Shown here piece by piece: positions 1-5,122 of a stretch of 35,715 nt of DNA (positions within the stretch are counted from its first letter, which is position 1; the number at the start of each line of letters is the position of its first letter). Position numbers and translations under genes: made by a program. The notes under the pieces were generated by a model. That model saw only the letters and a program-made list of their open reading frames with translations. It had not been told where the DNA came from and did no database searches. The stretch is from Bacteroidales bacterium. Lineage in GTDB: Bacteria; Bacteroidota; Bacteroidia; Bacteroidales; UBA7960. Where the stretch lies: the NCBI GenBank assembly GCA_007129945.1, contig SKUN01000164.1:1-35715 (forward strand). Reading direction: 5' to 3'.

Positions 1-332
1 GCAAGCTGGACATCCAGGTTCAGGTTTGCTGAGGCCAGGTTAAAACCTGCACCCAGAGGATAAAGGGCATTGACATCAGTGCCGTTGAAGATGTTTGCAC
101 TGGCTTCGTTTTCATGACTCAGACCCTGCATTTGCTGGGTAAAGTTACCTCCCAGGCGTACACCAAAGCCCTGATAAGGGACCGTGTCAGCCCTGAATGT
201 CTCAAACACATTCAGCCCCCTGGAATTAGCAGGCCGGTAGTAGCTTATTTCGGCGTTTTGCGCGATTAAAGGCATAGTGAAAATCAGTGCAAGTAGCGCA
301 GTTGGGATGATTCTGAAGAAAATATTTTTCAT
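1..332 (-). CDS. N-terminal part of a secreted/outer-membrane protein (truncated by window start)
   Basis: The reverse strand from ATG at 332 reads MKNIFFRIIPTALLALIFTMPLIAQNAEISYYRPANSRGLNVFETFRADTVPYQGFGVRLGGNFTQQMQG..., a signal peptide ending in AQN followed by beta-rich sequence. It stays open to the window edge. Confidence 0.6.
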   Translation of the reverse strand, partial: MKNIFFRIIPTALLALIFTMPLIAQNAEISYYRPANSRGLNVFETFRADTVPYQGFGVRLGGNFTQQMQGLSHENEASANIFNGTDVNALYPLGAGFNLASANLNLDVQL

Positions 333-403: not shown

Positions 404-985
404 TTATTCAGGGCTTACCACTACCCTGTAGCTGAGCTCCACCTCCTTACCGGTGCGCAGTACGCCGAACATGGCTGTGGGGGGATCAATATTATAGTCT
501 GTCATATCAATAGTCTGTGTGCCGGTAAATTCAATATCCCCATTGCGTAGCACACGACCGACGGGTTCCAGTTCAATGACCCGGGACACTCCGGCAACAG
601 TGAGTACGCCCCTGGAGGTGATGCGGGCTGTTCCCGGATTCTCGTAAAGGGAAAGGATATCACGCAGTTCGTAGTTGATGAATGGATGGTCGCCGGTTTC
701 CAGGGATTCGTAAATTTTATCGTTCATCCGGCGGCCTTCCGAACCTTCAATGGATCTGGTATCCACCCTGATGCGCACATTCTCGATGGATGTGATCTTT
801 CCATCCTCAATGGCTATATCAAAATGGCCGCTGACTTGTTCCACTTCGGCAGACCAGGACATCACATTTGACGTTCCGTCTATGGCGATCTCGTGAGATT
901 TAACTGCATACCTGTTCTGGGTAGATCCCAAAAAAGGAATAAGGATCAACAGGATGATTGTGATTTGTTTTATGAAAGGCATCAT
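404..985 (-). CDS. YceI family protein (lipid/polyisoprenoid-binding-like)
   Basis: 193-aa ORF with a signal peptide and YceI-like motifs (YAVKSHEIAIDGTSNVMSW..., GHFD..., NDKIYESLETGDHPFINYEL, GTLTVAGVSR-like block). Confidence 0.85.
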   Translation of the reverse strand: MMPFIKQITIILLILIPFLGSTQNRYAVKSHEIAIDGTSNVMSWSAEVEQVSGHFDIAIEDGKITSIENVRIRVDTRSIEGSEGRRMNDKIYESLETGDHPFINYELRDILSLYENPGTARITSRGVLTVAGVSRVIELEPVGRVLRNGDIEFTGTQTIDMTDYNIDPPTAMFGVLRTGKEVELSYRVVVSPE

Positions 986-1056: not shown

Positions 1057-1073
1057 AGCAATTGACCTGCCAA
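1057..1073 (-). promoter_or_regulatory. Sigma-54 (-24/-12) promoter upstream of the YceI gene
   Basis: The minus strand reads TTGGCAGGTCAATTGCT. This matches the consensus TTGGCA-N6-TTGCT with exact GG/GC spacing, about 72 nt upstream of the yceI ATG and just downstream of a sigma-54 activator gene. Confidence 0.65.
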
Positions 1074-1122: not shown

Positions 1123-1158
1123 AAAAAAACCCTTCGAAACTTTTTTCAAAGGGCTTTT
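1123..1158 (-). terminator. Intrinsic terminator-like hairpin after the sigma-54 regulator gene
   Basis: AAAAAACCCTTCGAA-ACTTT-TTTCAAAGGGCTTTT: a stem flanked by A and T runs on either side, between the NtrC-type gene and yceI. Confidence 0.6.
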
Positions 1159-1214
1159 CAGGAAGGCCGGGATTGACGTGTTGTCGTCTGTTTCGACGGT
1201 ATTCCGACGGTCGG

Positions 1215-2567
1215 CTAAATTTTAAGCTGGAGTTTCTCTATACGGGTTTTGAGGGTGGAAGGTGGTAGCGACAACATCTTTGCTGCTTTGGCCTTGTTTC
1301 CTCCGGCCCGCACCAACGCCTCACGTATGGCATTTTCTTCGACTTCACGGAGGATATCGGCCAGTGGACGCTCCCCAAAGTAATAGCATGTATGAGGGTT
1401 GTCCGGGAACCGCACCTCCATCGGAAGCATTTCCTTCATGATTTTGCCATCCCGTGACATAATAACAAGTCGTTCCATCAGGTTTTTCAACTCCCTGACA
1501 TTGCCCGGGAAAGGATATTGTTTGAGGATTTTCAGGACCTCATCGGTTAATTCAATGGCCTGCCCGTCTGAAAATTCATCGGTGAAATGCCGGGCGAGCA
1601 GTTCAATATCATTTGGTCGTTCCCGCAAAGGAGGGATGCGGATGGGAAAAATATTAAGGCGATAAAATAAATCTTCCCTGAACTTTCCCTCTTCCACCAT
1701 TTTTCGCAGGTCTTTCTTCGTTGAAGCGATCACCCTGACATCAACCTTGATGGTTTCTGTGCCGCCAACCCGCTCAATCTCCCCTTCTTCGAGGACACGT
1801 AATAGTTTTACCTGCAGATCATATGGGATGTCGTCAATGTCATCCAAATATAAAGTGCCTTGATGGGCCCTTTCAAAACGGCCGGATTTGGCTGATTCCG
1901 CACCTGTAAATGCGCCCTTTACGTGGCCAAACAATTCGCTTTCAAGAATCTCTCGTGAAAGAATGGCGCAGCTGACCCTGACCAACGCTTCTTTGCTGCG
2001 TTTACTATTGTGGTGGATGATGTTGGTCAGCAACTCTTTGCCGGTGCCAGTTTCGCCGAATATCAGCACGGTGGTTGATTTTTCCGCTACGAGTTTTACC
2101 AGTTCAAAAATCTCGGATGTTTCCTCGCTGGTGCCAACAAACGAGGCCATTCCGTATCTGCGTTCAATATGTTTGCGCAATTCACGGTTCTCTTCCCTGA
2201 CTTTCTTGAATGCTCCGATTCGTCGGATGGTCAGTAGCAATTCTTCACTGTTGAAAGGTTTGGAAATATAATCATAGGCCCCTAGTTTCATGGCCTCCAC
2301 CGCGGTGTCAATGGTGGCATAAGCCGTCATCAGTAAAACATAAACCCCCGGTGCGGTCTTCATGATGTTTCTGGTGAGGGTCAACCCGTCCATTTCCGGC
2401 ATTTTCAGGTCAGTCAGTACAATATCCACCTCCCCTTTATGGTCATTCATATACTGAAGGGCTGCCCCGGCAGAGGAGAACTCCTGCACCTGGTGACCGG
2501 CATCCCTGAGGTCATCGGCCGTTGTTACCCGGATGATACGTTCGTCGTCTACAACCAGTATGTGCAT
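1215..2567 (-). CDS. Sigma-54-dependent response regulator (REC-AAA+-Fis; NtrC/AtoC family)
   Basis: N-terminal receiver (VVDDERIIRVTTADDLRDAG...VLTDLKMPEMDG), Walker A GETGTGKE, the sigma-54 contact motif ELFGHVKGAFTGA, LYLDDIDD, and a C-terminal Fis HTH (GGNKAKAAKMLSLPPSTLKTRIEKL). Confidence 0.95.
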   Translation of the reverse strand: MHILVVDDERIIRVTTADDLRDAGHQVQEFSSAGAALQYMNDHKGEVDIVLTDLKMPEMDGLTLTRNIMKTAPGVYVLLMTAYATIDTAVEAMKLGAYDYISKPFNSEELLLTIRRIGAFKKVREENRELRKHIERRYGMASFVGTSEETSEIFELVKLVAEKSTTVLIFGETGTGKELLTNIIHHNSKRSKEALVRVSCAILSREILESELFGHVKGAFTGAESAKSGRFERAHQGTLYLDDIDDIPYDLQVKLLRVLEEGEIERVGGTETIKVDVRVIASTKKDLRKMVEEGKFREDLFYRLNIFPIRIPPLRERPNDIELLARHFTDEFSDGQAIELTDEVLKILKQYPFPGNVRELKNLMERLVIMSRDGKIMKEMLPMEVRFPDNPHTCYYFGERPLADILREVEENAIREALVRAGGNKAKAAKMLSLPPSTLKTRIEKLQLKI

Positions 2568-2568
2568 G

Positions 2569-4071
2569 TCAATCTTTTTTTGGAATGATTACAATAAAGC
2601 GACTACCGCGCCCCGGCTCACTTTCAACCAGGATCTCCCCTCCGTGGTCCTGTATAATCTGGAATGACACGGAAAGCCCCAGACCTGTTCCTTTGCCTAC
2701 ACTTTTTGTGGTAAAGAAGGGGTCGAATATTTTATTCATTTCTTCTTGCGGGATGCCTGTTCCGTTATCAGAAAAAATGATCGAAACATGACCGGGTTCT
2801 TGTTCAATCGAAATGTGAATACGCCCTTTCAGGGAGGGTTGAATTGCCATTTTCTCAGAAATGGAATCAATGGCATTGATAATGATATTCAAAAACACCT
2901 GCTCCATGCGGTTGGGTGAGACATAAATTTGTGACCCGGAATCGCCAGGATGAACGATAAATTCTATTTTATTGCTCTTAACCCGGTATCGGGCAAGCTT
3001 GATTGTTTTCCGGATTAACTCAGTGGCATTAATCGTTTCGAACCGGAGGGTGTCTTTCCGGCTGAAAGTAAGCAGATCCTGAACAACCCTTTCAATTCTT
3101 TCCAGGGCTTCACTCATCAGGGCCGTATATGATTTTATCTGTTCCGCGTTCTCCGGGTTTTTCCCGATGCGTTTCAGGCCAATGCCAATGCCGGCCAGCG
3201 GATTATTGATTTCATGTGCGACCCCCGCCGTGAGTGTTCCGATGGACGCCAGTTTCTCGGAATGAAACAGAGACTGCTGCATACGGTTCATATTGTAATG
3301 CGCCTCTTCCAATCGCTGGAGCATATTTGTATAGTTTTCATATAATACGTCAATTTCGTCGGAGAGCCCAAACAACCGGCGCACCCGGAAATACGGCATG
3401 GTGGTGGAATTCCGGATTTTCTTCAGTCCGGCCTGAATGTTTTTAATGTCAATTAAAGCAGACTGCCTGCTAAGTACCCTGAGTGGGGTGGCAATGGTAT
3501 AGGAGAAAAACAATGCAGCAGAGATTCCCAGTACGAGGAATATCCCTACCATCAGCCAAAGAGACAGCAGGGTGCTCTCCACTTGTTCAATAATCTCGTT
3601 CTCAAGTATCCCAACCCGGGCGACTCCCATATTCCTGCTCATGGTTGCCATTGAGAAATCCCTTATGCGGGGGTGGGGTGTATTCTTGTCGCGGATGCTT
3701 ATAATGCCTGGCTGGTCATCTGCCGGCGGGAGGTTTAGCCCGAGTAATTCTTGTGGTACCCGCTGGCTGAAGGAATGCGCCAGAACTTCCCCCCTGTCAT
3801 CCACGATAAAAGCATAGTGAATGGTCGGATCAATGGCCATAATCTCATTGATCAGCATATTCAGCCCGGCAGGATCATTGGCCAGGATATAGGCAACAGA
3901 CTGTTCGGCCAGTGCCCTGGAAATGAAATATCCACGCCTTTCAAATTCATTATTCAGTGAGTTGCTTACTGAGTTACGTACAATCAATGCATTCAACAGG
4001 CCAAAAAAAATGACCATGAAACTGATCCCCAGGGCAAATTTGGTGAATAATGACCATCTGATTTTTTTCAT
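2569..4071 (-). CDS. Membrane sensor histidine kinase (NtrB-like)
   Basis: N-terminal TM, periplasmic region, second TM, H-box SIGTLTAGVAHEINNPLAGI, N-box NIIINAIDS, DNGTGIP and GKGTGLGLSV motifs. One nt separates its stop from the start of the downstream regulator. Confidence 0.95.
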   Translation of the reverse strand: MKKIRWSLFTKFALGISFMVIFFGLLNALIVRNSVSNSLNNEFERRGYFISRALAEQSVAYILANDPAGLNMLINEIMAIDPTIHYAFIVDDRGEVLAHSFSQRVPQELLGLNLPPADDQPGIISIRDKNTPHPRIRDFSMATMSRNMGVARVGILENEIIEQVESTLLSLWLMVGIFLVLGISAALFFSYTIATPLRVLSRQSALIDIKNIQAGLKKIRNSTTMPYFRVRRLFGLSDEIDVLYENYTNMLQRLEEAHYNMNRMQQSLFHSEKLASIGTLTAGVAHEINNPLAGIGIGLKRIGKNPENAEQIKSYTALMSEALERIERVVQDLLTFSRKDTLRFETINATELIRKTIKLARYRVKSNKIEFIVHPGDSGSQIYVSPNRMEQVFLNIIINAIDSISEKMAIQPSLKGRIHISIEQEPGHVSIIFSDNGTGIPQEEMNKIFDPFFTTKSVGKGTGLGLSVSFQIIQDHGGEILVESEPGRGSRFIVIIPKKD

Positions 4072-4970
4072 TGCCTTATTTCCTCAATGGTTTCCCGCAG
4101 GCTGTCGTAGAGTGTATCCCCGACAATGGTGAAGCGATCGATCATCAATTCATCGAGTATTTGACGGGTATGTTCTTCGTGGTGCATATTGGTGAAGAAC
4201 TCCTGTATCTGACTTCGCAATTCTCTTGACATCAGTAAGGAGTTGACCACCGGAGGGATGCCACCCGGCTCGGTTTTTTCAATTATGCGCAGATTTTCCA
4301 CATAGCCGGGCCGTGCATGATTCAGGTAGTCAAATATGAGGCCGTTAACCGCCGCCCCGTCAATCAAGTTACGTGATACCATCTGAATGGAGAGGTCATG
4401 CGACATTGAGTGAATCATTTCTCCAAAAAATTCCCCGGAATTTGTGCCTAATTCTTTGAGACGCTTGTTAACGAACAAACTGCCTGTAAAGCACATGGGG
4501 TCTGAATAGGTAAAGGATCGACCTTCAAAATCCCCAAAGCGGTGGATGTCGCTGTCGGTATTTGAAATAATATAACCCCGGTAATAGGGTTCGCCATACA
4601 CAATGGGGACGAACATCAGTTCCATGTAATCAGTTCCCTGTATGTAAGCACCCGAGCAGATAAAGGCCATGTCAACGAGGTTGCGTGCCAGCATTTGGTT
4701 TACCTCCTCATAGGTGGTACGTTGCTTGAATTCAACGGGCATATCCAGGTGTTCGGACAACACCTCAAACATCTCCTGATAATACACAAAACTTTCACGG
4801 GGGGAGATCACAGTTGCAATGGCTACCCTTAGAACGCTTTCGCTAATTGTGTCGGGCGGGGATGACTCGTTGTCGTTGAAATCAACCTCGTAAACTTCTT
4901 GCCGGGGTCCTTGGCAGGAAGCCAGCGTCATGATAATAATTGCGATGAAAAATAATGACCGGAGAAACAT
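4068..4970 (-). CDS. PhnD-like phosphate/phosphite/phosphonate-type periplasmic substrate-binding lipoprotein
   Basis: PhnD-type fold motifs (LRVAIATVISPRESFVYYQEMFEVLSEHLDMPVEFKQRTTYEEVNQMLARNLVDMAFICSGAYI...). Lipobox MTLASC. The 3' end overlaps the kinase start by 4 bp (ATGA). The ORF track start at 5006 is probably too long; ATG at 4970 fits the signal peptide. Confidence 0.88.
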   Translation of the reverse strand: MFLRSLFFIAIIIMTLASCQGPRQEVYEVDFNDNESSPPDTISESVLRVAIATVISPRESFVYYQEMFEVLSEHLDMPVEFKQRTTYEEVNQMLARNLVDMAFICSGAYIQGTDYMELMFVPIVYGEPYYRGYIISNTDSDIHRFGDFEGRSFTYSDPMCFTGSLFVNKRLKELGTNSGEFFGEMIHSMSHDLSIQMVSRNLIDGAAVNGLIFDYLNHARPGYVENLRIIEKTEPGGIPPVVNSLLMSRELRSQIQEFFTNMHHEEHTRQILDELMIDRFTIVGDTLYDSLRETIEEIRQ

Positions 4971-5122
4971 TTTTTTATTTTGATTAGATCTGAAACAGGG
5001 AAACAACCTTTGATGCTTTTGTGTTTAATTGCGGGGAATAAATATACTAATAAATTAAAAATATAAATATATATAGGTGAAACATTTGAGTTTGAATTAT
5101 CCACGCATACAAAAAAAGCCGT

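Follow-up and report, generated by a model that had tools for sequence, protein, structure and literature searches.

An ArrX-like oxyanion-sensor system with a predicted sigma-54 enhancer and promoter for a YceI and porin-like operon in Bacteroidales

What would a sigma-54 promoter do in front of a gene for a YceI protein, and which signal would it answer? The question is raised by contig SKUN01000164.1 of a Bacteroidales bacterium (GCA_007129945.1), whose 35,715 nucleotides were analyzed as a whole and are called the window here. The YceI family is widespread and its role is poorly known. A first-pass annotation had read the locus as a self-contained circuit, in which a PhnD-type lipoprotein, a histidine kinase and an NtrC-type regulator act on a sigma-54 promoter for yceI and possibly for the outer-membrane protein gene downstream. 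Pfam matches bear out each of these protein assignments (Table 1), and the circuit, including the outer-membrane protein, is strongly supported by synteny, a dedicated enhancer and a rigid spacing between enhancer and promoter.

Table 1. Predicted genes and regulatory elements of the locus, in window coordinates
Feature	Position	Strand	Basis or remark
Second output gene (5' part), outer-membrane beta-barrel	3..332	-	Cut by contig end
yceI, secreted lipocalin-like YceI protein, first output gene	404..985	-	Pfam YceI 38.7 bits (gathering 23.7)
Sigma-54 -24/-12 element, TTGGCAGGTCAATTGCT	1057..1073	-	71 nt from YceI ATG (985)
Intrinsic terminator of regulator operon	1123..1156	-	Fold -18.6 kcal/mol, z -4.4, then T7 tail
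Tandem palindromic enhancer (upstream activator sequence)	1175..1208	-	GTCGGAATACCGTC-gaaaca-GACGACAACACGTC, centres 20 bp apart
NtrC/AtoC-type response regulator	1215..2567	-	Pfam, NCBIfam: receiver, sigma-54 AAA+ activator, Fis-type HTH
Membrane histidine kinase	2569..4071	-	Pfam: sCache_3_2 sensor region, HisKA, HATPase_c; synteny
ArrX/AioX-like periplasmic oxyanion-sensor lipoprotein (PhnD superfamily)	4068..4973	-	Lipobox LASC; Pfam PF12974 E 2e-45; gene overlaps kinase gene by 4 nt

The element proposed as the promoter is present on the minus strand as described, with TGGCA and TTGC in -24/-12 arrangement and the GG-N10-GC spacing that sigma-54 requires, and its reported distance of about 72 nt from the YceI start codon agrees with our measurement to the nucleotide or so. 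Its description as ‘consensus-perfect’ holds for TGGCA-N6-TTGC and is slightly generous for the fuller consensus TGGCACG-N4-TTGCW, since position 6 in TTGGCAGGTCAATTGCT is G. The genome has one rpoN gene (Sigma54_DBD match, E 3.5e-53). An exact TGGCA-N6-TTGC match occurs once in the window against a chance expectation of 0.61, and 47 times in the whole genome. Because neither count is enriched over the dinucleotide expectation, motif counting was dropped as evidence in its own right, and the string by itself proves nothing; it becomes significant through its position, its conservation and its fixed distance to a tandem enhancer.

Conservation was assessed with a promoter score taken from the literature consensus, with weights set by hand rather than trained on the scored loci. 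In the search that the first-pass annotation had suggested, elements scoring at least 0.8 were found upstream of yceI in 15 of 22 loci in module context, in comparison with 9 of 109 other upstream regions (Fisher p 7e-9; the loci are related by descent, so that such p-values overstate independence and amount to strong evidence from trials that are not independent). In 19 of those 22 loci the contig also includes the regulator gene, the other three (G012, G026 and G810) lying at contig edges, and the control regions were drawn from the same set of loci after clearing them of yceI promoters listed under other locus names. Seven of the eight yceI genes without an adjoining module score below 0.8, the exception being G049, which has a weaker element (0.82) and no module seen nearby. 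The match is not uniform among relatives: the -12 half carries GA or GT in place of GC in several of them, and G041 reaches only 0.62.

The first-pass annotation described only half of the promoter; it overlooked a tandem enhancer between the ntrC stop codon and the terminator hairpin. It consists of GACG-N6-CGTC twice, with centres 20–21 bp apart across loci, and lies upstream within the range of about -80 to -200 expected for an NtrC-type activator. The pair in the window scores 15/16, a value not reached in 200 shuffles, and is the sole place in its genome that matches with two mismatches or fewer; a tandem pair is present at every GACG-type module examined and was never equalled in 200 shuffles per locus. 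The proximal palindrome, taken at its centre, lies 110 bp from the -24 G in the window, and at each of the 16 yceI loci measured this distance is 106–111 bp, although the promoters stand anywhere from 59 to 210 bp from the ATG. Identity between loci is 36% in the spacer versus 62–63% in the palindromes and promoter. The best-scoring site downstream of the enhancer sits at that distance in 14 of 15 loci; in the remaining one (G035) the two palindromes are identical and the distal copy was taken, the proximal measure being 106 bp. At one locus (G009, L054:3852-4080) GAACGAAA-type repeats lengthen the leader that runs from the promoter to the yceI ATG; the yceI start is displaced, yet the distance from enhancer to promoter stays at 110 bp.

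Two genera (g4 and g5) possess the module and lack the GACG palindromes, having palindromes of TGCGGAATTTCGCA type (TGCGG..CCGCA) instead, and the recognition helix of their regulators reads STFRTKA versus STLKTRI, as in the window, or STLKSRI elsewhere. Palindrome and recognition helix thus change together, which ties the enhancer to the adjacent regulator rather than to other sigma-54 activators. About six other full AAA+ activators are encoded in the genome and cross-activation is possible, so one of these might control the promoter while the neighboring regulator serves other targets. We regard this as very unlikely, given that the palindrome pair exists only at this locus in the genome, is found wherever this type of regulator occurs and follows its recognition helix. 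Less probable still is a fortuitous -24/-12 match, with yceI transcribed by read-through or from a housekeeping promoter instead. The expectation of 0.61 matches per window speaks for a chance origin, as does a single sigma-70-like match overlapping the site, itself as frequent as chance predicts, but the conservation, the fixed enhancer spacing and the enrichment over control upstream regions all count against it. Read-through is opposed by the terminator separating the two operons. This hairpin, already noted in the first-pass annotation between the promoter and the activator gene, is confirmed by its folding energy and T-tract and lies between enhancer and promoter, although a dedicated terminator scan did not flag it. 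Taken together, the comparison among loci shows a putative promoter and enhancer paired with the adjacent regulator. No sigma-54 site or palindrome that would indicate autoregulation was found upstream of the sensor gene in the window.

The preferred reading, that the sensor system acts on yceI and the genes behind it, extends to relatives. The order phnD-HK-RR-yceI-OMP(-yceI2) is conserved not only within the genus and the family but also in further families of the order, and within the genus yceI is present in 8 of 8 genomes with the sensor and in 1 of 13 without it, that one at a contig edge (p 4e-5, subject to the same caution about descent). The predicted fold of YceI, a model of moderate confidence, has its best matches entirely within the YceI family (YceI/BcnA/TT1927b, E 5e-6 to 1e-3). 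The second output gene encodes about 445 amino acids in relatives, one of which weakly matches Porin_O_P. Its structure prediction is too poor for a fold search (mean pLDDT 38.6), and its C-terminal beta strands, ending in Phe, suggest a barrel. In most relatives a second yceI (yceI2) comes after this gene, at a position beyond the window. A PDB sequence search with the outer-membrane protein and YceI as queries gave no matches.

Several relatives carry additional genes near the output operon. A secreted methionine sulfoxide reductase of SelR/MsrB type is encoded after the outer-membrane protein gene in G004 (L049:6212-6793), and a similar gene lies near the second target in G008 (L096:2-430); these genes may hint at an oxidizing ligand. 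G008 also has a second palindrome pair and a TGGCATATGCTTTGCT site upstream of another outer-membrane protein gene. A second barrel gene, OMPb (L115:3077-3798, L116:2765-4081), has its own sigma-54 site, TGGCATATGCTTTGCT or TGGCATATGCCTTGCT.

Operons of three kinds are found behind orthologous modules across the order. Type A comprises yceI, the barrel of about 445 amino acids and the second yceI. Type B encodes EB_dh-type and multihaem cytochromes, DUF5777, an iron-sulfur protein and NrfD (G046, G100, G117, G158, G274, G333), and type C, in G148 and G117, has the order ArrA-ArrB-NrfD-TorD. In type C operons ArrA and ArrB are by far the best NCBIfam matches, yet they fall below the curated cut-offs, and in the PDB the large subunit is matched best by ArrA. 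Such Bacteroidales ArrA-ArrB-NrfD-TorD operons lie behind an ArrX-like module at L122:696-8595 and L124:1532-9828, whose AAA+ regulator sets them apart from Chrysiogenes with its CitB-like ArrR. Type B and C modules have sensors, kinases and regulators orthologous to those of the window, most of them with tandem palindromes and a downstream -24/-12-like site, and differ in the output operon and in the sensor residue considered below. At a single locus in G817 (L142:4983-12444), one palindrome pair precedes a cytochrome-lipoprotein/DUF5777/EB_dh operon and another precedes yceI-OMP-yceI2, and one regulator there appears to drive both operons. Upstream of type B operons (L120, L125, L121, L133), TTGAA replaces TTGC as the -12 half at the expected place and the distance between enhancer and promoter is about 116–130 bp, possibly reflecting variant sigma-54 recognition in those families. 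In G708 (L139:5584-11883), a distant module with a divergent pocket stands directly before an apparent molybdenum-cofactor gene cluster, as judged from protein starts only.

Which ligand would the system detect? The nearest solved relatives of the sensor are ArrX (6x6b, E 2e-44), the protein by which Chrysiogenes arsenatis binds arsenate, and then AioX (E 1e-26). The AioX subfamily is described as sensing arsenic oxyanions for molybdoenzymes. Among the seven AioX pocket residues (Tyr88, Cys106, Tyr131, Ser161, Ser163, His192 and Asp210; PMC5908839), the sensor in the window keeps Tyr88, Cys106, Tyr131 and His192 and has the changes S161C, S163T and D210N, a pocket that does not place it in the AioX/ArxX/ArrX arsenic-sensor subfamily. 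The same circuit could nevertheless respond to arsenate or arsenite, with the YceI and porin-like operon as an arsenic response. The kinship to ArrX and AioX, the retention of the arsenite-binding Cys106 with three further pocket residues, and the orthologous modules upstream of ArrA-ArrB-NrfD operons in G148 and G117 favor this possibility, which we consider unlikely on balance in view of the three altered positions, the lack of any arsenic gene seen beside the module, and a search at E<=1e-100 that detected no ArrA in the window's genome or in any of its 60 relatives, using a model that does find it in G148, G117 and G100. We regard some oxyanion other than arsenate as the probable ligand.

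The position equivalent to AioX 210 varies with the output: it is Asn in every type A locus read, His in the six type B loci and Asp in both type C loci. The tree gives good support to three clades of Asn-type sensors and does not resolve how these branch relative to one another. A strict rule equating Asp210 with arsenate reductase was tried and failed in G333 and G265. We therefore treat the residue 210 code as an association and not a rule, because two Asp-type genomes have no detectable ArrA and because G817, with an A operon as well as a B-like operon, has Asn. Tentatively, and with somewhat less than even confidence, we propose that the ArrX-like sensors of Bacteroidales belong to a family of three-component systems, each specific for an oxyanion, with residue 210 (Asp, His or Asn) helping to set the ligand and the sigma-54 output swapped to match; the outputs would be arsenate reductase, a multihaem-cytochrome pathway, and a YceI-porin-YceI envelope module for handling an oxyanion that such systems are not yet known to detect.

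The first-pass annotation regarded the arrangement as not previously described. This does not hold for the architecture, because AioXSR and ArxXSR are published three-component systems with PhnD-superfamily sensors that work through an RpoN promoter (PMC5908839, PMC6011840), and because the sensor is closest to ArrX; it does hold, as far as we found, for the YceI-porin-YceI output. As in Rhizobium NT-26 and Alkalilimnicola, a periplasmic PhnD-superfamily sensor, a histidine kinase and an NtrC/AtoC-type AAA+ regulator are encoded together, and the neighboring target operon has a sigma-54 promoter (TGGCACAACGATTGCA in NT-26; PMC5908839, PMC6011840). The systems differ in their output, which is an arsenic-metabolizing molybdoenzyme there and yceI, a porin-like outer-membrane protein and yceI2 here, in the pocket at S161, S163 and D210, and in the enhancer, here the tandem GACG-N6-CGTC palindrome. 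In comparison with ArrX-ArrS-ArrR of Chrysiogenes arsenatis, which provides the closest solved structure to the sensor, the regulator here is a sigma-54 activator and no arrA was found, whereas ArrR is CitB-like and without an AAA+ domain (PMC5908839). The output protein shares the Pfam domain and fold of YceI/BcnA lipocalin-like proteins and is distinguished by its sigma-54 enhancer control and by sharing its operon with genes for a porin-like barrel and another YceI. In a literature search limited to papers available without subscription, we found none joining YceI with sigma-54 in Bacteroidetes, none joining YceI with arsenate and response regulators, and none on YceI with a porin operon under a two-component system.

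Judging from the sequence comparisons, it is very probable that yceI and the porin-like gene are activated by this three-component system of oxyanion-binding lipoprotein, kinase and regulator, acting at the tandem enhancer and the sigma-54 site. From the behavior of the protein families we infer the phosphorelay, the looping and the start site. The lipoprotein would bind a periplasmic oxyanion and then engage the Cache-domain histidine kinase, which would phosphorylate the NtrC-type regulator; the phosphorylated regulator would bind the two palindromes and loop onto sigma-54 polymerase at the -24/-12 element, so that transcription would start near 1046 and continue through yceI, the porin-like outer-membrane barrel and, in relatives, the second yceI. 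Some YceI proteins bind isoprenoid-type lipids. Because of this property, the weak Porin_O_P match and the fold match to TT1927b, handling of an anion and of a lipid or quinone-like cofactor is suggested: the output would serve the passage of the oxyanion (or of its redox partner) across the outer membrane or its handling there, and the YceI pair would carry the cofactor. Such a role at the envelope is probable, and much less certain than the circuit.

If so, the same signalling hardware that serves arsenic metabolism elsewhere, with enhancer and promoter intact, would here be wired to envelope proteins. The YceI family gains a regulated context, a candidate class of inducer and a clean reporter promoter, and the choice of ligand by these sensors may be studied in the Bacteroidales modules, where naturally occurring pocket variants come with different outputs.
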